A program made the position numbers and the translations under genes. The notes beneath the pieces are model-generated. The model made no database searches. It worked only from the letters and a program-made list of their open reading frames with translations, and was not told the origin of the DNA. 64,000 bases of DNA from Arenicola marina (Eukaryota; Annelida; Polychaeta; Arenicolidae), in assembly GCA_964019135.1 (NCBI GenBank), contig OZ025263.1, forward strand, positions 36,062,133-36,126,132, read 5' to 3'. This document shows, piece after piece, positions 17,111 to 29,727 of this stretch (its first letter is position 1; each line of letters starts with the position of its first letter).

Positions 17111-17238
17111 CATTTAGCGTTTACTCAACCCGCGGGTCCGGGCAGTTAGCGTTTACTCAACCCGAGAATGCCGGCAGTTAGCGTTTATTCAACCCGAGAA
17201 TGCCGGCAGTTAGCGTTTATTCAACCCGAGAGTGTGAG
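17111..17238. repeat. 32-bp repeat, four copies
   Basis: Four units starting at 17111, 17143, 17175 and 17207, sharing TTAGCGTTTACTCAACCCG and GAATGCCGGCAG. They lie directly before the 30-bp satellite and are unrelated to it in sequence. The first unit is the most diverged. Confidence 0.9.
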
Positions 17239-17240
17239 CA

Positions 17241-20200
17241 GTCGGCGGGGGGAGCCAGATATACGGGACAGTGGGCGGGGTAAGCCAGATACACGGGACA
17301 GTGGGCGGGGTAAGCCAGATACACGGCACAGTGGGCGGGGTAAGCCAGATACACGGCACAGTGGGCGGGGTAAGCCTGATACACGGCACAGTGGGCGGGG
17401 TAAGCCAGACACACGGCATAGTGGGCGGGGTAAGCCAGATACACGGGACAGTGGGCGGGGTAAGCCAGACACACGGCACAGTGGGCGGGGTAAGCCAGAT
17501 ACACGGCACAGTGGGCGGGGTAAGCCAGATACACGGCACAGTGGGCGGGGTAAGCCTGATACACGGCACAGTGGGCGGGGTAAGCCAGATACATGGCACA
17601 GTGGGCGGGGTAAGCCAGATACACGGCACAGTGGGCGGGCTAAGCCAGATACACGGCACAGTGGGCGAGGTAAGCCAGACACACAGCACAGTGGGCGGGG
17701 TAAGCCAGATACACGGCACAGTGGGCGGGGTAAGCCAGATACACGGCACAGTGGGCGGGGTAAGCCTGATACACGGCACAGTGGGCGGGGTAAGCCAGAC
17801 ACACGGCATAGTGGGCGGGGTAAGCCAGATACACGGCACAGTGGGCGGGGTAAGCCAGATACACGGCACAGTGGGCGGGGTAAGCCAGATACACGGCACA
17901 GTGGGCGGGGTAAGCCTGATACACGGCACAGTGGGCGGGGTAAGCCAGATACACGGCACAGTGGGCGGGGTAAGCCAGATACACGGCACAGTGGGCGGGG
18001 TAAGCCAGATACACGGCACAGCGGGCGGGGTAAGCCAGATACACGGGACAGTGGGCGGGGTAAGCCAGATACACGGCACAGTGGGCGGGGTAAGCCAGAT
18101 ACACGGGACAGTGGGCGGGGTAAGCCAGATACACGGGACAGTGGGCGGGGTAAGCCAGATACACGGCACAGTGGGCGGGGTAAGCCAGATACACGGCACA
18201 GTGGGCGGGGTAAGCCAGATACACGCCACAGTGGGCGGGGTAAGCCAGATACACGGCACAGTGGGCGGGGTAAGCCAGATACACGGCACAGTGGGCGGGC
18301 TAAGCCAGATGCACGGCACAGTGGGCGAGGTAAGCCAGACACACGGCACAGTGGGCGGGGTAAGCCAGATACACGGCACAGTGGGCGGGGTAAGCCAGAT
18401 ACATGGCACAGCGGGCGGGGTAAGCCTGATACACGGCACAGTGGGCGGGGTAAGCCTGATACACGGCACAGTGGGCGGGGTAAGCCAGACACACGGCACA
18501 GTGGGCGGGGTAAGCCAGACACACGGCACAGTGGGCGGGGTAGGCCAGATACACGGCACAGTGGGCGGGGTAAGCCAGATACACGGCACAGTGGGCGGGG
18601 TAAGCCAGACACACGGCATAGTGGGCGGGGTAAGCCAGATACACGGCATAGTGGGCGGGGTAAGCCAGACAAACGGCATAGTGGGCGGGGTAAGCCAGAT
18701 ACACGGCACAGTGGGCTGGGTAAGCCAGACACACGGCATAGTGGGCGGGGTAAGCCAGATACACGGCATAGTGGGCGGGGTAAGCCAGATACACGGATCA
18801 GTGGGCGGGGTAAGCCAGACACACGGCACAGTGGGCGGGGTAAGCCAGATACACGGCACAGTGGGCGGGGTAAGCCAGATACACGACACAGTGGGCGGGG
18901 TAAGCCAGATACAGGGCACAGTGGGCGGGGTAAGCCAGATACACGGCACAGCGGGCGGGGTAAGCCAGATACACGGATCAGTGGGCGGGGTAAGCCAGAC
19001 ACACGGCATAGTGGGCGGGGTAAGCCAGATACACGGATCAGTCGGCGGGGTAAGCCAGATACACGGCACAGTGGGCGGGGTAAGCCAGATACACGGATCA
19101 GTGGGCGGGGTAAGCCAGACACACGGCACAGTGGGCGGGGTAAGCCAGATACACGGCACAGTGGGCGGGGTAAGCCAGATACACGGCACAGTGGGCGGGG
19201 TAAGCCAGATACACCGCACAGTGGGCGGGGTAAGCCAGATACACGGCACAGTGGGCGGGGTAAGCCAGATACACGGCACAGTGGGCGGGGTAAGCCAGAC
19301 ACACGGCATAGTGGGCGGGGTAAGCCAGATACACGGATCAGTCGGCGGGGTAAGCCAGATACACGGCACAGTGGGCGGGGTAAGCCAGATACACGGCACA
19401 GTGGGCGGGGTAAGCCAGATACACGGATCAGTGGGCGGGGTAAGCCAGATACACGGCACAGTGGGCGGGCTAAGCCAGATGCACGGCACAGTGGGCGGGG
19501 TAAGCCAGACACACGGCACAGTGGGCGGGGTAAGCCAGATACACGGCACAGTGGGCGGGGTAAGCCAGATACACGGCACAGTGGGCGGGGTAAGCCTGAT
19601 ACACGGCACAGTGGGCGGGGTAAGCCAGACACACGGCACAGTGGGCGGGGTAAGCCAGATACACGGCACAGCGGGCGGGGTAAGCCTGATACACGGCACA
19701 GTGGGCGGGGTAAGCCAGACACACGGCACAGTGGGCGGGGTAAGCCAGATACACGGCACAGTGGGCGGGGTAAGCCAGATACACGGCACAGTGGGCGGGG
19801 TAAGCCAGACACACGGCACAGTGGGCGGGGTAAGCCAGATACACGGCACAGTGGGCGGGGTAAGCCAGATACACGGCACAGTGGGCGGGCTAAGCCAGAT
19901 GCACGGCACAGTGGGCGAGGTAAGCCAGACACACGGCACAGTGGGCGGGGTAAGCCAGATACACGGCACAGTGGGCGGGGTAAGCCAGATACACGGCACA
20001 GCGCGCGGGGTAAGCCTGATACACGGCACAGTGGGCGGGGTAAGCCTGATACACGGCACAGTGGGCGGGGTAAGCCAGACACACGGCACAGTGGGCGGGG
20101 TAAGCCAGATACACGGCACAGTGGGCGGGGTAAGCCAGATACACGGCACAGTGGGCGGGGTAAGCATGATACACGGCACAGTGGGCGGGGTAAGCCAGAC

Positions 20201-23200
20201 ACACGGCACAGTGGGCGGGGTAAGCCAGATACACGGCACAGTGGGCGGGGTAAGCCAGATACACGGCCCAGTGGGCGGGGTAAGCCTGATACACGGCACA
20301 GTGGGCGGGGTAAGCCTGATACACGGCACAATGGGCGGGGTAAGCCTGATACACGGCACAGTGGGCGGGGTAAGCCAGACACACGGCACAGTGGGCGGGG
20401 TAAGCCAGATACATGGCACAGCGGGCGGGGTAAGCCTGATACACGGCACAGTGGGCGGGGTAAGCCTGATACACGGCACAGTGGGCGGGGTAAGCCAGAC
20501 ACACGGCACAGTGGGCGGGGTAAGCCAGACACACGGCATAGTGGGCGGGGTAAGCCAGATACACGGCACAGTGGGCGGGGTAAGCCAGACACACGGCATA
20601 GTGGGCGGGGTAAGCCAGATACACGGCATAGTGGGCGGGATAAGCCAGATACACGGATCAGTGGGCGGGGTAAGCCAGACACACGGCACAGTGGGCGGGG
20701 TAAGCCAGATACACGGCACAGTGGGCGGGGTAAGGCAGATACACGGCACAGTGTGCGGGGTAAGCCAGATACATGGCACAGCGGGCGGGGTAAGCCAGAT
20801 ACACGGATCAGTTAGCGGGGTAAGCCAGATACACGGCACAGTGGGCGGGGTAAGCCAGATACACGGCACAGTGGGCGGGGTAAGCCAGATACACCGCACA
20901 GTGGGCGGGGTAAGCCAGATACACGGCACAGTGGGCGGGGTAAGCCAGATACACCGCACAGTGGGCGGGGTAAGCCAGATACACGGCACAGTGGGCGGGG
21001 TAAGCCAGATACACGGATCAGTGGGCGGGGTAAGCCAGACACACGGCATAGTGGGCGGGGTAAACCAGATACACGGATCAGTCGGCGGGGTAAGCCAGAT
21101 ACACGGCACAGTGGGCGGGGTAAGCCAGATACACGGCACAGTGGGCGGGGTAAGCCAGATACACGGATCAGTCGGCGGGGTAAGCCAGATACACGGCACA
21201 GTGGGCGGGCTAAGCCAGATGCACGGCACAGTGGGCGAGGTAAGCCAGACACACGGCACAGTGGGCGGGGTAAGCCAGATACACGGCACAGTGGGCGGGG
21301 TAAGCCAGATACACGGCACAGCGCGCGGGGTAAGCCTGATACACGGCACAGTGGGCGGGGTAAGCCTGATACACGGCACAGTGGGCGGGGTAAGCCAGAC
21401 ACACGGCACAGTGGGCGGGGTAAGCCAGATACACGGCACAGCGGGCGGGGTAAGCCTGATACACGGCACAGTGGGCGGGGTAAGCCAGACACACGGCACA
21501 GTGAGCGGGGTAAGCCAGATACACGGCACATTGGGCGGGGTAAGCCAGATACACGGCACAGTGGGCGGGCTAAGCCAGATGCACGGCACAGTGGGCGGGG
21601 TAAGCCAGATACACGGCACAGTGGGCGGGGTAAGCCAGATACACGGATCAGTCGGCGGGGTAAGCCAGATACACGGCACAGTGGGCGGGGTAAGCCAGAT
21701 ACACGGCACAGTGGGCGGGGTAAGCCAGATACACGGCACAGTGGGCGGGGTAAGCCAGATACACGGCACAGTGGGCGGGGTAAGCCAGATACACGGATCA
21801 GTCGGCGGGGTAAGCCAGATACACGGCACAGTGGGCGGGGTAAGCCAGATACACGGATCAGTGGGCGGGGTAAGCCAGATACACGGGGTAAGCCAGACAC
21901 ACGGCACAGTGGGCGGGGTAAGCCAGATACACGGATCAGTGGGCGGGGTAAGCCAGATACACGGCACAGTGGGCGGGGTAAGCCAGATACACGGCACAGT
22001 GGGCGGGGTAAGCCAGATACACGGCACAGTGGGCGGGGAAGCCAGATACACGGCACAGTGGGCGGGGTAAGCCAGATACACGGATCAGGGGCGGGGTAAG
22101 CCAGATACACGGCACAGTGGACGGGGTAAGCCAGATACACGGCACAGTGGGCGGGGTAAGCCAGATACACGGCACAGTGGGCGGGGTAAGCCAGATACAC
22201 GGCACAGTGGGCGGGGTAAGCCAGATACACGGCACAGTGGGCGGGGTAAGCCAGATACACGCCACAGTGGGCGGGGTAAGCCAGATACACGGGGTAAGCC
22301 AGACACACGGCACAGTGGGCGGGGTAAGCCAGATACACGGATCAGTGGGCGGGGTAAGCCAGATACACGGCACAGTGGGCGGGGTAAGCCAGATACACGG
22401 CACAGTGGGCGGGGTAAGCCAGATACACGGCACAGTGGGCGGGGTAAGCCAGATACACGGCACAGTGGGCGGGGTAAGCCTGATACACGGCACAGTGGTC
22501 GGGGTAAGCCAGATACACGGCACAGTGGGCGGGGTAAGCCAGATACACGGCACAGTGGGCGGGGTAAGCCAGATACACGGATCAGTTAGCGGGGTAAGCC
22601 AGATACACGGCACAGTGGGCGGGGTAAGCCAGATACACGGCACAGTGGTCGGGGTAAGCCAGATACACGGCACAGTGGGCGGGGTAAGCCAGATACACGG
22701 CACAGTGGGCGGGGTAAGCCAGATACACGGATCAGTTAGCGGGGTAAGCCAGATACACGGCACAGTGGGCGAGGTAAGCCAGATACACGGATCAGTGGGC
22801 GGGGTAAGCCAGATACACGGCACAGTGGGCGGGGTAAGCCAGATACACGGATCAGTTAGCGGGGTAAGCCAGATACACGGCACAGTGGGCGGGGTAAGCC
22901 AGATACACGGCACAGTGGGCGGGGTAAGCCAGATACACGGCACAGTGGGCGGGGTAAGCCAGATACACGGATCAGTCGGCGGGGTAAGCCAGATACACGG
23001 CATAGTGGGCGGGGTAAACCAGATACACGGCACAGTGGGCGAGGTAAGCCAGATACACGGCACAGTGGGCGGGGTAAGCCAGATACACGGCATAGTGGGC
23101 GGGGTAAGCCAGATACACGGCACAGTGGGCGAGGTAAGCCAGACACACGGCATAGTGGGCGGGGTAAGCCTGATACACGGCACAGTGGTCGGGGTAAAGC

Positions 23201-23355
23201 CAGATACACGGCACAGTGGCCGAGGTAAGCCAGACACACGGCATAGTGGGCGGGGTAAGCCAGATACACGGATCAGTGAGCGCGGTAAGCCAGATACAGG
23301 GCACAGTGGGCGGGGTAAGCCAGATACACGGCACAGTGGGCGAGGTAAGCCAGAT
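17241..23355. repeat. 30-bp satellite array
   Basis: About 204 copies of a 30-bp unit with words GGGGTAAGCCAGATACACGG and CACAGTGGGCGGGG. From about 17281 to 21870 (about 153 units) every unit is exactly 30 bp. The first length change is an 18-bp unit near 21871-21888, and the same short unit recurs near 22275-22292, about 406 bp on. Variation sits at a few sites (GGCACA, GGATCA, GGCATA, GGGACA; CCAGAT, CCAGAC, CCTGAT). Because 30 is a multiple of three and only one of six frames has a stop per unit (TAA), giant open frames of up to about 1,600 codons appear on both strands; I treat them as artefacts. Confidence 0.97.
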
Positions 23356-23360
23356 TAAGC

Positions 23361-23978: not shown

Positions 23979-23979
23979 A

Positions 23980-24003
23980 TTTTTTTTTTTTTTTTTTTTT
24001 TTT
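23980..24003 (-). other. LINE poly(A) tail
   Basis: Twenty-four T on the plus strand, that is A24 at the 3' end of the minus-strand element. A single-base homopolymer tail of this length supports recent target-primed reverse transcription of a polyadenylated RNA. Confidence 0.92.
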
Positions 24004-24013
24004 AATATGAAAG

Positions 24014-24019
24014 TTTATT
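24014..24019 (-). terminator. AATAAA polyadenylation signal of the LINE
   Basis: TTTATT on the plus strand reads AATAAA in element sense and lies 10 nt before the A tail, in the 98-nt 3' UTR (24101-24004). The spacing is short but typical for LINE RNAs. Confidence 0.75.
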
Positions 24020-24101
24020 CACAAAGAGAAATATAGTACACGCAGATGGTATAGCACGTTGATGGTACATAAATTATAACTACTATTTTGTGTATGCTAG
24101 A

Positions 24102-27100
24102 TTACTTTCTATATTCTACGGATAGTTGCTTTAGTAGCGTTATGGTATCTTGCTGTTTAATCGTGTTTGCATACAGTGATGCCCTTGATGCTAGTTCGTG
24201 AGTAAAAAACCTGATGGAATTCTCCCAAAGACGTGGTTTGTCATCATTGACAGACACCAACCATTCTTTATATAATAAATATGCTACCAATGTTACTACC
24301 AGATCTTCAGTTTTATTGTCGCGGCCCATATATATATCTTGGCGCTGTATTGGCTTAATCAAACGACTCAGGACAGACCACACCTTCCTCGCGTGACAAC
24401 ATTGAAATAGGAGGTGTGGTATGTCTTGGACTCCAGGACACAAGTCGCCGTTGGCTGACTCGCGTTTGCCCCACTTCTTAAGATTGGCGTTACATGGTAG
24501 TACATTATGCAGTATCTTGTAATTAAACTCAGCCAATTTCAGGATTTGACATTTTGATATTTTCGTCCTATACGTTCTCGAAAAGTCAAAATCTATATTT
24601 AGAGATAACAAATGTTTCAGTTTTTGCTCAGAAACTGGTCTTTCTATTTTAATGTCTAAAAGCCGGTTATAATAAGGGTTGCTTTTCTCTTCGATTTCAT
24701 GGTATCGTTCCCTTACTCTATACAATTCTGGGTTCCAGGTACCAATTAAATTACCGTAAGGCTTCAGGGCTTTACGCAGGATGACGCATTCCGCTATGAA
24801 GTTCCGCTTATCATCTAGGATATTGTAAATGTAGTCAGAGTCTAATTTTCCATTGACAAAGCGCAGTTGCCCAACAAATAGTATATTGTTCTTGACAAAT
24901 GTTGAAAAGTATAAATGCTCTAGACCTTTACGGTTTCCGTATTTACAAAATCTATTTCCCCACAAGCAGTGGTCAAGTATGTCCTCCTTTGATTCTGGGG
25001 GTTTTACTGACCGAGACTTTGAAAAGGCGTGGATGACACCCCTGTAAAAAGCCGAACATTGGTCTAATACAAGGAACTGACTTAAAACTTGAACAGAAAG
25101 GTGTACTAGCGTGTTATCTGTTACAAAAGGATGCAGACGTTGTCTGGCTAAAAACGCCCAGTTGGCATTGCTATGTGCACTTAATATTCTGAATACCCAC
25201 ACCGCTTTCAGCGACATAAAGAGACATTCCATATCGATCATACCCAAGCCACCTCTATCAATTGGCGCTACTAAAACATTTCGTCTGTCGCTTTGTCCCC
25301 ATATGAAATTAAAAAAGATAGTATTTATACGTTTAACTATGTTAGGAGGTACATCGCAAACGCTTGACAATAGGTTCAATTTCGAAACACACATTGTTTT
25401 AATGACAGTGACTTTGCCAAATAAAGTTAAATTCCGTGCTCTCCATTTCATTATTTCTTTATCGATTGCTTTCAATTTGCTTTCCCAATTTAGCATTGTA
25501 CATTTTTCATGATCTTGGCCTACAAAGATACCCAGACATTTTAGCGGTTCGTTTGTGAACCTTATACCGCTGATTACGGATTGACTGGTTTCCTGTCCTA
25601 CACAAATCCCGATCGTCTTATCGATGTTTAGACGTAAACCAGCAACGTCCCCGAACCTCTCTATACGCGACAGGAGGCGGGGAATCTCTTGCACATCTTG
25701 TATGAAGACAATGCAATCATCTGCATACTGACTGAGTATAACATTTCGGCTTTCGTCTATATATGTTATGGTTACACCCCTCACTTCCTGTTTTAGTGAC
25801 AAGGACATCATTTCAAGTGATAATATGAACAGTAGGGCTGACAGTGGACAACCTTGGCGTATACCGCGCGACATATCGAACGATTCTGATAGGTACCCGT
25901 TATTCTTTACTTGCATAAGAGGTTTTTCATATATCGTACTTATCGCCTTGACAAAATGTGGACCAAAATTAAACTTTTCCAACGATTTTAACATAAAGTT
26001 CCATTCCAAAGAGTCAAAAGCCTTTTTGAAATCTAAGGAGAGGACATAGCCCCTTTCACGTTTTTCTTCTAAATAGTCGATGACGTCTTGCACCATTCTT
26101 ATGTTATATCCTATAAAGCGTTTCTTTACATAGCCTGTCTGGTCATGGCTAATCAATTTACCTAACACTACACGTATTCGATGCGCTAATGCAAAGGCTA
26201 GAATTTTGTAATCAGTATTTGACAAAGAGATGGGCCGATAGTTTGAAAGCTCGTCTCTTTCCCCTTTCTTGTATATAAGCGTGAGGACGCACTGTCTCTG
26301 GATATACGGTAATACTCCACCGGTCAACGCCTCATTGAATGTATTTACAAGCAACGTTTTTATGTGAGGCCAAAAGGCTTGATAGAACTCAGAACTCAGT
26401 CCATCTAGGCCTGGGGGCTTGTTTACTTTCAGGTGATGCACAGCATCAGAGCATTCACTTTCAGTGAGTGGTAATTCACAATCGTCTTTTTTGCTTTTCG
26501 TCAGGACCCCGGGAATTATTAACTTCTCAAGATATTCATCTACCTTTGTGTCATTTACACTCGCAGTCGTATACAATTGCGAATAATAATGCTGACTTTC
26601 ACGTAGAATTTCTTTGTTAGAATATACAACAGCACCAGTGTTATCCCTTAGGTTGGTTATACAGTTGGAGGTTTGACGCGATTTCTCCAGATTACAAAAA
26701 TATGTGGTGTTACGTTCACCTTGTTCGAGCCATTGGACGCGTGATCGGATCTGTGCACCCCTGGCCTTTTCGTACAAACAGTTTTCAAATTTCTGCTTCA
26801 ACATTACTTTCCTATCTCGCAACTCTTTTGTCTGAGTCTTGCATAGCTGATCTTCCACAATACTCAATTCCCTTTTCATATTGCTTAGTTCCTCCCTTCT
26901 TATCCTGCTACGCTTTATACCGTATCCAATTGAATATTCACGCACACGTACTTTGAACATTTCCCATGTCGTACTGTAACTAATATTCCCATATTCCTCC
27001 TTCGTTTTTTCTAGAATATTCAGAATATTTTGAACATAATCAGGTTCCTGCAGAAAAATACAGTTCAGTTTCCAATATCCCTTACCACGATTCTCAGTCT

Positions 27101-27827
27101 CTAGATTTAGAGTGGTTACTACACCTTTGTGATCGGGTGTCGGAGCAAGCTTGATCACACAGTCATCGAGTTGAGTTTTCATTTTACTGGCCACTAACAC
27201 GTGATCTATGCGGCTCATAATGCCGTTATGCGATGGGTCTACATAGGTATACACACGCTGGTTCGGGTTTTTAACTCGAAACGAGTCAATAACGTTCATG
27301 CTTTCCTTCCATCTTTTATACAATTCCGTAGTTGCGTCAGCATTCCCTGAGCTTCTATCTATTCTGTCATCTACTGTATTGAAATCTCCTCCAATAATGA
27401 GGCTTTCCGTACAGGGACAATGTTTTGTGATCCAGCGTTTCAGGTAGGTGAAATACTGAGCGCGCGCACTGCCCTTATTTGGAGCATAAACTGATACGAA
27501 AGTGAGCAGGTCGTTTTCCGTTTTAATATTAACCATTACATTTCTACCGTCAGAATCACACTGGTGTCCTTGAACAGACACGTCTCTATTCATGATTAAT
27601 ATGGCTGCACCTTTTCCTCGAGATAGATCAGAAATACTGTGGTATACTTGGCTGGGCCAATCTTTATCAAAAGATTTGACAATTTCCCGCGTTACATGGG
27701 TCTCTTGTAGAAGTGCAATATCTATCTTATTTTCTAATAGCCATTGGAAAACTACCAATCGTTTTCGCTTTTCTCTCAAACCTCGGGTGTTGAGCGAAGC
27801 AATTTTAATTGGCTCTGAAAAACTCAT
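24102..27827 (-). CDS. LINE ORF2: APE endonuclease / reverse transcriptase
   Basis: A 1,241-aa polyprotein for target-primed reverse transcription in the nucleus. Residues about 7-240 form an APE-type endonuclease: SLNTRGL (N13), LLQETH (E42), VYAPN (Y114), GGDFN (146-150), SRIDHV (205-210) and DHKGV (D232, H233). Residues about 460-780 are the reverse transcriptase: NYRPISLSN (529-537), SLDFKKAFD with D599, RGIRQGCPLSALLF (654-667) and the catalytic YADD at 701-704 (genomic 25727-25716). The downstream WRARNLTLFGKVTVIK region is typical of the L1 superfamily. Near residues 1119-1150 a zinc-knuckle-like motif (LCPGVQDIPHLLFQC) keeps one Cys, the His and a final Cys; the first Cys expected three residues earlier is a Gly (G1127). 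The start is the first ATG after in-frame stops; its context is weak (CATATGA). No premature stop or frameshift. Confidence 0.96.
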   Translation of the reverse strand: MSFSEPIKIASLNTRGLREKRKRLVVFQWLLENKIDIALLQETHVTREIVKSFDKDWPSQVYHSISDLSRGKGAAILIMNRDVSVQGHQCDSDGRNVMVNIKTENDLLTFVSVYAPNKGSARAQYFTYLKRWITKHCPCTESLIIGGDFNTVDDRIDRSSGNADATTELYKRWKESMNVIDSFRVKNPNQRVYTYVDPSHNGIMSRIDHVLVASKMKTQLDDCVIKLAPTPDHKGVVTTLNLETENRGKGYWKLNCIFLQEPDYVQNILNILEKTKEEYGNISYSTTWEMFKVRVREYSIGYGIKRSRIRREELSNMKRELSIVEDQLCKTQTKELRDRKVMLKQKFENCLYEKARGAQIRSRVQWLEQGERNTTYFCNLEKSRQTSNCITNLRDNTGAVVYSNKEILRESQHYYSQLYTTASVNDTKVDEYLEKLIIPGVLTKSKKDDCELPLTESECSDAVHHLKVNKPPGLDGLSSEFYQAFWPHIKTLLVNTFNEALTGGVLPYIQRQCVLTLIYKKGERDELSNYRPISLSNTDYKILAFALAHRIRVVLGKLISHDQTGYVKKRFIGYNIRMVQDVIDYLEEKRERGYVLSLDFKKAFDSLEWNFMLKSLEKFNFGPHFVKAISTIYEKPLMQVKNNGYLSESFDMSRGIRQGCPLSALLFILSLEMMSLSLKQEVRGVTITYIDESRNVILSQYADDCIVFIQDVQEIPRLLSRIERFGDVAGLRLNIDKTIGICVGQETSQSVISGIRFTNEPLKCLGIFVGQDHEKCTMLNWESKLKAIDKEIMKWRARNLTLFGKVTVIKTMCVSKLNLLSSVCDVPPNIVKRINTIFFNFIWGQSDRRNVLVAPIDRGGLGMIDMECLFMSLKAVWVFRILSAHSNANWAFLARQRLHPFVTDNTLVHLSVQVLSQFLVLDQCSAFYRGVIHAFSKSRSVKPPESKEDILDHCLWGNRFCKYGNRKGLEHLYFSTFVKNNILFVGQLRFVNGKLDSDYIYNILDDKRNFIAECVILRKALKPYGNLIGTWNPELYRVRERYHEIEEKSNPYYNRLLDIKIERPVSEQKLKHLLSLNIDFDFSRTYRTKISKCQILKLAEFNYKILHNVLPCNANLKKWGKRESANGDLCPGVQDIPHLLFQCCHARKVWSVLSRLIKPIQRQDIYMGRDNKTEDLVVTLVAYLLYKEWLVSVNDDKPRLWENSIRFFTHELASRASLYANTIKQQDTITLLKQLSVEYRK

Positions 27828-27950
27828 ATGCGTTTTACTTTATATAAAGAATTACCTGATGGTTACCAATTGTTTCGATTTCATTGCTGGGCGTAGTCCT
27901 TGCCAATTCCGGGTTCGTCTTCGGGTCTTGCCATGGTGTGGACTCACAGT
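27828..27950 (-). other. ORF1-ORF2 intergenic gap of the LINE
   Basis: 123 nt lie between the ORF1 TGA and the ORF2 ATG. Both ORFs share the same frame. After the TGA the frame stays open for 32 codons, then meets TAA and, four codons later, TAA again just before ORF2. A short ATG-started frame of 10 codons lies inside. ORF2 translation therefore probably needs reinitiation or internal entry, as known for other two-ORF LINEs. Confidence 0.7.
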
Positions 27951-29435
27951 TCAGTCTCCGGCTGCTTCCGGCTGATTCGGGCTGTCTCCAGCTGCTTCCG
28001 CTGCATCGCCAGAGCCAGGCTCTTGCGGATCCGGCCCCGCGCATTTCTGTTTTCGCGTGGCCGCGTCACCAGAAGGAGGGCCGGATGGTTTCCTTTTTCC
28101 CTTTCCCGACGCTTCTCGTTGGCACTTGAGGAACTTTAGGATATCTTGGGTTTGCTTTGCGTGTTTGCTGGTGCTGACGCGGCCTGGAAGGCTATCAGCT
28201 CGTTGTCGTTGGCTAATTCCACCTCTGGCAACCTTTCGGCTGCGGGTCACCGTCGTATGGTCATTGGTTTCGTTGTCGGCACAGTCTGCTGCGTCGATCT
28301 CTCCCTCTTCACGGGGATCTTCTGTTGTTTGATCCTGTAGGATGGCAGCTTTTAGCTGCATCAGCATGCTTCCGAGCAGGTTTTTTCCCGGCCAGAAGGC
28401 TGGCTTGGTCCGCGTTGTATCTGTCGGCCTCAGACCAGTTCCCCACAGACGATCTCTAGAGCACTCAGCAATGATGGGCTTTGTGTCCAGAATCGCTTTT
28501 CGAAAATCATCGTGCTGTTCAGCTTTCTGGCGAAGCAGATCTTCCATGACTTTCAAATTGTCATTAACCCACTGGTCTGACTCGGCTTCAGGAATCTCGC
28601 GACTCAAGCGTCTTGCATCTCCAGCAGTTGTGGCATTCTTTATCCGTTTGGCGAGGTCAGCTCGCCCTGTATTCTTGGCCTTATACCACTGAAAAGCCTG
28701 TTCCACACTGTCGAAAGTATCTTCAAACGCGTTTATCGCTGAATGGTGAAAATTCGACAAAACCATTTCATGCCCGCTAAAGGTACTTGTGTTGTCCGCC
28801 GTTTCGATAGCCGGGCAGGCATTGTCTCCCGCCTTATGGCCCAGTCTGTCGCATGCACGGCATTTTCCTTCATATTGGCCGTCGTGGTGGACCTTGCATC
28901 GCATGCCAATGACCCACAGGGACCATGGGATGAGTGGGGCAATGGGGGCCAATGCATATGCAAATCGATCACCAGTCAGATAGTCTGTCAACTTGCCTTC
29001 AGGGTTTCTGGCTTTCGAATAGCGAAAATCCGTGACGAGTTTTACGCCTTTTTGTTGAAGCGTTTTCACAAGTTCATCGCTATTAACAGATATTGGTAGA
29101 AACTTCACAGTTATTTTCTCCCGTTTCTCCTCGGGCGTATGCTGTCTGGCAACGAGAGGGTTAATGTCATATAACGGTACTGTTTCGCCGTTAATCCGCA
29201 GCTCACGTCGGACCAGCATCTCGGCTCGGGCTTCAAGGGATTTGAAATAAACACGCCAAGCTCCCTTTGATGCTGGGTCTGGCGCCTGAGCACCCTCTAC
29301 TTTGCCCGGTCCGATACATTTCCGAATAGCTTCGCATACGTCATAAGTACCTGGCACGGGTTGTCCATTAGCCTTTATTGTGAGGTCCTCCTGTTTGAAG
29401 AACAGTGGCCGCACTTGTGAATTTCGTCTCTCCAT
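27951..29435 (-). CDS. LINE ORF1: RRM-like, CCHC knuckle and NADAR domain
   Basis: A 494-aa protein expected to coat the element RNA. Residues about 30-95 and 106-185 look RRM-like by eye (GAWRVYFKSLEAR; KITVKFLPISV), at moderate confidence. A CCHC knuckle follows: C192, C195, H200, C207 (C-x2-C-x4-H-x6-C). Residues about 219-366 form a NADAR/YbiA-type domain: LSNF (226-229), SVEQAFQWYKA with E245, VMEDLLRQKAEQH (296-308), LWGTGL with W331, and GKNLLGSMLMQLK (350-362). These follow the order seen in E. coli YbiA, as I recall that sequence. NADAR proteins act as N-glycosidases on ADP-ribose-linked or riboflavin-pathway substrates. The C-terminal 130 residues are acidic, then basic and Gly/Pro-rich, probably disordered. 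The ATG is secure: an in-frame TAA lies four codons upstream (29447-29445). The function in transposition is unknown. Confidence 0.93.
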   Translation of the reverse strand: MERRNSQVRPLFFKQEDLTIKANGQPVPGTYDVCEAIRKCIGPGKVEGAQAPDPASKGAWRVYFKSLEARAEMLVRRELRINGETVPLYDINPLVARQHTPEEKREKITVKFLPISVNSDELVKTLQQKGVKLVTDFRYSKARNPEGKLTDYLTGDRFAYALAPIAPLIPWSLWVIGMRCKVHHDGQYEGKCRACDRLGHKAGDNACPAIETADNTSTFSGHEMVLSNFHHSAINAFEDTFDSVEQAFQWYKAKNTGRADLAKRIKNATTAGDARRLSREIPEAESDQWVNDNLKVMEDLLRQKAEQHDDFRKAILDTKPIIAECSRDRLWGTGLRPTDTTRTKPAFWPGKNLLGSMLMQLKAAILQDQTTEDPREEGEIDAADCADNETNDHTTVTRSRKVARGGISQRQRADSLPGRVSTSKHAKQTQDILKFLKCQREASGKGKRKPSGPPSGDAATRKQKCAGPDPQEPGSGDAAEAAGDSPNQPEAAGD

Positions 29436-29727
29436 GTGAGCTGTTTAGTTCGCAGGCGGCGAGTATCCAAGGGTGTAAATATGTGGTGCTGGCAGCAATG
29501 GAAGAACTTCCAAACGTGCAGAAAGGTAAACAAGAAAAAAAAGTCAAATAATCCAACAAGTGTGCGATGTAATCCAGTAGGGATGCACCTTACAGATGCA
29601 GCAGTGCGTTATCTATATCCAGCGCATTTTTTGTAGCTCCAATCAATGTCATTTCTGTGCAAATTGTCAAAGATCCGAGAGCTACTGCTTTTTTCAAACC
29701 AGTGCTTAGGGACCACGTGACGTCAAA
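29436..29727 (-). promoter_or_regulatory. LINE 5' UTR / putative internal promoter
   Basis: The 292-nt leader between the 5' target-site duplication and the ORF1 ATG. In element sense it opens TTTGACGTCACGTGG: a palindromic CRE (TGACGTCA, 29725-29718) overlapping an E-box (CACGTG, 29719-29714), starting two nucleotides from the 5' terminus. LINEs must carry promoter information downstream of the start site, so this position is plausible for an internal Pol II promoter. No TATA box is needed or seen at the right place. Activity is inferred. Confidence 0.45.

Follow-up and report, generated by a model that had tools for sequence, protein, structure and literature searches.

Why would a LINE carry, within its first open reading frame, a domain of a family known for removing ADP-ribose, and how might it have come to be there? 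The question is raised by a 64,000-nucleotide stretch of the Arenicola marina genome (hereafter the window), in which an element on the reverse strand encodes a NADAR (YbiA-like) domain in ORF1.

The insertion occupies positions 23979..29721 (−), with the 5′ end near 29721 and an A-run at about 24003-23979, and similarity to other copies stops at both ends. A 5′ untranslated region common to the element copies (29436..29721, −) is followed by ORF1 of 494 aa (27951..29435, −), ORF2 of 1241 aa (24102..27827, −) and a 3′ untranslated region with the A-run (23979..24101, −), the last delimited by comparison with copies. ORF1 consists of an unassigned N-terminal part of ~190 aa, a CCHC-like knuckle, the NADAR domain and a tail of ~130 aa. 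ORF2 contains an exonuclease-endonuclease-phosphatase domain (Pfam Exo_endo_phos, E=1.1e-10), a reverse transcriptase (RT; RVT_1, E=1e-33) with a YADD motif recognized by eye, and a weak zf-RVT match below the cut-off. Its closest solved chain is human LINE-1 ORF2p (8uw3, E=1.7e-90), which has the same endonuclease-RT order. Judged by its APE-like endonuclease, an RT nearest to LINE-1 among solved chains, the A-tail and the target-site duplication, the element is a two-ORF member of the L1 superfamily; we presume that it belongs to a Tx1-like clade, a name applied by analogy with the elements of PMC12477816.

The end and untranslated stretches are 99.1-99.5% identical to three genomic copies (one on C20, two on C17), all of which have the same 5′ end as the window element and A-runs at their 3′ ends. 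The window insertion is flanked by a 16-base target-site duplication in which 15 of 16 bases are alike, and the duplication is likewise 16 bases long, by eye, at both C17 copies. Four other full copies encode an ORF2 98% identical to that of the window. The near-identity of the untranslated stretches, together with the target-site duplications, indicates that the element is young, and by the same sequence evidence it is recently active. The original prediction of an otherwise complete LINE is thus borne out by an ORF2 with endonuclease and RT, the shared 5′ end, the poly(A) tail and the duplication with its single mismatch. At the C20 copy (L084), the first A-run is separated from a 15-base duplication by 154 additional bases and another A-run, an arrangement that looks like a 3′ transduction. 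The remainder of the window (1-23955 and 30091-64000) is mostly minisatellite, leaving the LINE as an island in between, with a ~64-base unit in some 550 copies on one side and arrays of 12-41-base units on the other. Minisatellite-like flanks were also seen by eye at two of the three compared copies. Long open frames at 17168-23358 (up to 1623 aa, on both strands) were ruled out as genes, being a translated 30-base repeat.

Sequence comparison confirms that ORF1 carries a NADAR domain of the YbiA subfamily. The Pfam NADAR profile (PF08719) matches residues 223-365 of the uninterrupted 494 aa frame with E=2.6e-24 (86.8 bits versus a cut-off of 35.1), and a phmmer search of the PDB with ORF1 returned two chains, both NADARs: 8bau (1.8e-4) and YbiA 2b3w (6.2e-4). 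The former is an ADP-ribose-bound oomycete NADAR (Phytophthora nicotianae numbering: PMC11543638). We place the domain at 28347..28787 (−), residues 217-363 of ORF1, a slight shift from the 28338-28781 given in the original prediction; the hallmarks listed there (LSNF, SVEQ...K, VMEDLLRQKAEQH, LWGTGL and GKNLLG) are all present. An AlphaFold2 model of the domain (pLDDT 89.3, pTM 0.83) retrieved 8bau (3.0e-8, TM 0.82) and 2b3w (1.6e-6, TM 0.76) with Foldseek and no other solved structure below 0.001, as well as 49 matches below 0.001 in a viral library, many of them named NADAR. Since the alignment behind the model comprised the window domain and 26 NADARs from viral contigs (identity 21-30%), the model depends on the family assignment; the sequence matches are independent of it. 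Two of the checks proposed with the original prediction, a Pfam search and a structure prediction compared with YbiA, came out in its favour.

The zinc knuckle predicted ahead of the domain is visible by eye at residues 192-207 (28815..28862, −). Its spacing is C-x2-C-x4-H-x6-C, the usual end spacing being x4, so that the label CCHC applies only loosely, and the Pfam match to zf-CCHC_6 stays below the cut-off (E=0.14). Every C and H position of the knuckle is identical across the four aligned rows of this ORF1 type (type I, below), and L063, of the same type, has a knuckle with x4 end spacing. AlphaFold gave no usable model of residues 1-214 from the single sequence (pLDDT 41).

The fusion is not unique to this insertion, a result on which the original prediction had made its own standing depend. 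The 867 Mb genome contains at least 150 NADAR places, out of 317 candidates and all above the cut-off. From the top 27 NADAR rows we fetched 20 with their flanks, skipping seven near-duplicates, and at 17 of these 20 loci a LINE ORF2 match follows downstream in the same orientation; the others show a 34-residue match (L021, E=0.001), an RT upstream only (L015) or none (L028). By coordinates, at least 96 of the 150 places are preceded by an ORF1 N-terminal match or followed by one to ORF2: a type I N-terminal part accompanies at least 63, a type II part at least 32 and an ORF2 at least 19. This comparison took in 114 of 151 type I, 52 of 150 type II and 31 of 43 ORF2 matches, short or weak pieces having been dropped. 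Among the other 54 places, direct reading puts L014, L018, L020 and L063 in LINEs. Seen from the RT side, 19 of the 31 ORF2 rows compared have a NADAR among the matches listed upstream and 12 do not.

Two ORF1 architectures carry the domain, and in the LINE loci read it was always part of ORF1, never of ORF2. Type I, to which the window belongs, comprises an N-terminal part, a CCHC-like knuckle, the NADAR and a tail (L052, L053 and L063, read fully; L030, L031, L033, L034 and L040, by coordinates). In type II (L009, L012, L013/L014, L017, L020, L021, L025), the NADAR forms the C-terminal end of the protein or lies close to it, behind a part resembling LINE-1 ORF1p. Four type II N-terminal parts, combined into a profile, gave a match to human LINE-1 ORF1p (2yko, 2.9e-5), and the putative coiled coil, RRM and C-terminal domain are so named by analogy with it; the window ORF1 belongs instead to the CCHC-like type, and a profile of N-terminal parts of that type found nothing convincing among solved chains (best E=0.18). 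To our knowledge, human ORF1p has no NADAR. In the same genome, L1-type ORF1 frames of ~300 aa without NADAR were found at all four loci fetched for them (L065-L068), followed by an L1-type ORF2 in L065, L067 and L068, so elements of this sort may have the domain or lack it. ORF1 frames missing from the NADAR listing were rejected as a further source of NADAR-less cases, since all four fetched (L052-L055) carry the domain. The ~2 kb upstream of ORF2 in L049, L050 and L051 gave no NADAR profile match, with only the end of a NADAR discernible by eye in L051, and these are taken as 5′-truncated copies.

The basic fusion of NADAR and ORF1 is already in print. A 2025 paper (PMC12477816) mentions that Tx1 LINEs of Crassostrea gigas, known as Repbase families, have a NADAR in their ORF1, and reports an Ectocarpus Gypsy element with NADAR. 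The oyster elements share with ours a YbiA-family NADAR in a LINE ORF1; they are mentioned in passing and are likened here by description, and the accessible portion of that text says nothing of a second ORF1 architecture, of sisters lacking NADAR, of lost pocket residues or of a Penelope-like NADAR. The Ectocarpus element is similar in that a retrotransposon has captured a NADAR, but it is an LTR element with the domain in Pol, and the searches described in its paper hit almost only bacteria (PMC12477816). Among the open-licence papers listed by our literature searches, PMC12477816 was the relevant one, and we found no Penelope-like NADAR, second ORF1 type, NADAR-less sister or residue loss; further cases may be in print.

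We mapped the residues of the P. nicotianae NADAR, as given in the accessible text of PMC11543638, onto 16 LINE families, one row each. The window domain keeps E43, K50, E125, D130, W89 and W133 (P. nicotianae numbering), and has R at K75 and R at R79. Three ADP-ribose contacts of 8bau, Y84, D86 and R93, are absent from it, which counts against the hydrolase reading given below; E. coli YbiA does without them as well. Its last strand contains a glutamate, as in the YbiA subfamily, versus an aspartate in the DarT1-linked subfamily, a distinguishing mark according to PMC11125620. E. coli YbiA and the NADARs of DarT-NADAR toxin-antitoxin systems have the same fold and the same pocket E and K as the window domain; unlike it, they are bacterial proteins, stand-alone or operonal. 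Fourteen of the 16 families retain all four of E43, K/R50, E125 and W133, two of these 14 rows (L012, L014) having an in-frame stop elsewhere. K50 is R in five families; the corresponding mutant hydrolyses in vitro and does not rescue cells (PMC11543638).

The remaining two families have lost both pocket glutamates while the frame over the domain stayed open: E43→D and E125→A in L018/L020 (also L023, L042), and E43→D, K50→M, E125→V and W133→L in L053 (also L055). L042 lies within a 420-aa frame and L053 within a 497-aa frame, and the ORF2 of L020 is split in two frames. On the NADAR tree the two families lie apart, L053 within the CCHC lineage and L018/L020 elsewhere. If the catalytic residues are rightly assigned, both domains look like naturally inactivated forms. 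The original prediction had named the disappearance of pocket residues among related copies as a point against itself; this does occur, but in 2 of 16 LINE families.

Published NADARs hydrolyse ADP-ribose off guanine in DNA (PMC11543638, PMC11125620), and on RNA a NADAR reverses ADP-ribose on the guanosine base, not at phosphate ends (PMC11833690). Removal of ADP-ribose from nucleic acid is, from the sequence, the likeliest use of the domain. Specifically, and at somewhat short of an even chance, we favour a guanine-base ADP-ribosyl hydrolase acting within the ORF1 ribonucleoprotein and cleaning the element RNA or cDNA. ORF1p would coat the element RNA, and the NADAR held in the same ribonucleoprotein would act on guanine bases, either in that RNA or in the single-stranded cDNA synthesized at the target, hydrolysing off ADP-ribose adducts at which reverse transcription would otherwise stall. 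The source of such lesions would be a base-modifying ADP-ribosyltransferase (pierisin/CARP-1-like or DarT-like) belonging to the host or to its microbes, and not the ordinary PARPs that modify proteins. Base-directed enzymes are known from molluscs, to which the oyster with the published fusion belongs: clam CARP-1, and an activity present in six edible clams, transfer ADP-ribose onto N2 of guanine (PMC11209040). Our search of the A. marina genome for the pierisin/scabin family gave no match, but neither did the positive control, so that this result carries no weight. The two glutamate-loss families and the NADAR-less relatives (L065, L067, L068) indicate that the activity is not required for retrotransposition in general; in those two open-frame families the domain would bind or be structural at most.

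The same two families are an argument for an alternative that we regard as possible, if rather unlikely, namely that the NADAR fold was co-opted as an ADP-ribose reader or structural module for binding nucleic acid or ADP-ribose, in packaging or in tethering at the nick, with catalysis dispensable. Both glutamates were lost in separate parts of the NADAR tree from ORF1 families whose frames remain open, the domain sits in ORF1 and not in ORF2 of the LINE loci read, and C. elegans SNA-3, implicated in trans-splicing, has three NADAR domains (PMC11125620). Against a purely non-catalytic role stands the retention of E43, K/R50, E125 and W133 in 14 of 16 families despite a mean NADAR identity of 34% over 13 families.

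Quite improbable is a housekeeping role in nucleotide or metabolite turnover, with the domain as an N-glycosidase clearing reactive nucleotides or otherwise processing the element RNA. Bacterial and plant NADARs have been suggested to detoxify riboflavin intermediates (PMC11125620), and the authors of the Ectocarpus study propose that RNA intermediates are processed (PMC12477816), but a metabolic enzyme in ORF1 of several lineages would be hard to account for. We give a slim chance to the reading put forward with the original prediction, a shield against PARP-type host defence that would strip ADP-ribose from the ORF proteins or from RNA or DNA ends in the manner of viral macrodomains. PARP catalytic domains are encoded in the genome (66 matching pieces of 122 candidates), and a survey of metazoan RNA viruses takes their Macro and NADAR domains as counter-defence (PMC9503650); these viruses, like the LINEs, are selfish RNA-based replicators with a domain thought to remove ADP-ribose, although here it lies in a retrotransposon ORF1 and not in a virus. 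Published NADAR specificity nevertheless fits this shield poorly, in that the guanosine base is a substrate and phosphate-end ADP-ribosylated RNA is not (PMC11833690), and the accounts of NADAR consulted name no protein substrate.

Inheritance of the domain with the elements and constraint on its sequence both speak for the guanine-base hydrolase; the history was examined on RT and NADAR trees. The RT trees had 24 and 22 rows, L015 and L066 being omitted from the latter because the RT of L015 lies upstream and equals that of L065, and the RT of L066 may belong to another insertion. Four NADAR-bearing RT lineages were found with NADAR-less relatives among them: A, the window element and its kin; B, L009, L012, L017 and L025; C, L014, sister to NADAR-less L068 (100/99); and the very distant D, L018, L020 and L023. 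The L062 row (L053 family) joins A at 90/97 in the 24-row tree and is not placed in the 22-row tree. NADAR presence requires two changes on the RT tree, a value equalled by 50 of 500 label shuffles, so that no clustering of NADAR presence is shown. The NADAR tree has sets corresponding to those of the RT (A without L063, 97/93; A with L063 and L064, 97/97; B, 91/92; C, 100/99), and the lineage D NADARs are placed with those of bacteria and phages (96/91), though their branch is long.

Over 13 families, NADAR and RT distances are correlated (r=0.77, 0 of 9999 permutations as high), and within lineage A, with 7 families, r is 0.80 (81 of 9999 permutations). This correlation suggests that the domain was inherited with the elements, and we read the pattern as a long co-inheritance following one or several captures. 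The AU test rejects a common clade for the 17 LINE NADAR rows when L064 is excluded (p=0.008), but not when L064 is included (p=0.29) or when the Penelope-like row is added (p=0.29). Frames are open among NADARs 23-50% identical to the window domain. Out of 780 pairs (40 rows, seven broken or near-copy rows dropped earlier), 21 had measurable synonymous change and identity >40%; dN/dS was 0.18-0.57 in 20 of them and 0.99 in one, values that give a direction and not a test, as the pairs overlap and many have few differences. Pattern scans found no relative of the L009 NADAR in prokaryote genomes and none of the window NADAR in viral contigs. Translated searches matched 88 plasmid and 827 phage records, and among the matches listed, 30 of each, identity was ≤40%, so that no near microbial donor was seen in these collections.

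NADAR also occurs outside LINEs, in an element at L122:1253-3928 and L124:753-1901 (both −), recognized from Pfam matches and from motifs seen by eye. Its first frame, of 892 aa, matches NADAR at 3.2e-14 and, weakly and under the cut-off, a GDSL/SGNH hydrolase at 4.7e-4. An overlapping second frame has an RVT_1 match (4.7e-6, under the cut-off), with RT motifs that by eye we take to be Penelope-like, and continues into a GIY-YIG domain (26.1 bits versus a cut-off of 22.6). Six copies of the 892-aa frame, that of L122 among them, are ≥98% identical. The NADAR of this element groups with type I LINE NADARs and L064 (97/97), on a long branch, and its last-strand glutamate is not clearly there by eye; an exchange of NADAR between element classes would fit this grouping. 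That the domain is a passenger, picked up as a piece of a host or microbial gene and serving no function, is very improbable: NADAR-less relatives and two families with lost pocket residues would suit it, but the conservation of the domain disfavours it, with open frames at 23-50% identity, dN/dS <0.6 in 20 of 21 usable pairs, co-divergence with RT and recurrence in the Penelope-like element.

L064 itself is an open 862 aa frame (L064:111-2696) with two nearly identical NADAR domains and a linker-histone match under the cut-off. No LINE ORF2 match was found in the 4 kb fetched, 1.3 kb of which lie beyond the frame. By its sequence it may be a host gene akin to the LINE domains, whether as their donor or as a copy that was domesticated. 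The original prediction held that the fusion would explain scattered YbiA-like genes of animals; L064, which groups with LINE NADARs, suggests such a connection in either direction. A broader reading, which we consider unlikely, would make NADAR a counter-defence module that unrelated retrotransposon classes have in common, namely LINEs of either ORF1 architecture, a distant LINE lineage and a Penelope-like element; they would have acquired it, perhaps passed it among themselves, and retained it. It would reveal an otherwise unseen host system of guanine ADP-ribosylation directed at retrotransposon RNA or cDNA, with L064 as a host enzyme of that system, donor or domesticated copy.

If the ORF1 NADAR is active, it is quite likely that the hosts possess, or once possessed, an enzyme attaching ADP-ribose as a mark to guanine bases of foreign RNA or cDNA; we know of no description of such marking as a means of transposon control in animals. 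The elements themselves supply proteins for testing, the families predicted to be dead serving as natural controls and the NADAR-less relatives as a comparison. Some YbiA-like gene models in animal genomes may be pieces of transposons. On C6, five NADAR-like pieces with ~40% identity to the NADAR of L014 lie within ~1 Mb (G000:C6:35690794-36731527), each in a frame of 154-158 aa; L123, one of them, is a diverged piece.
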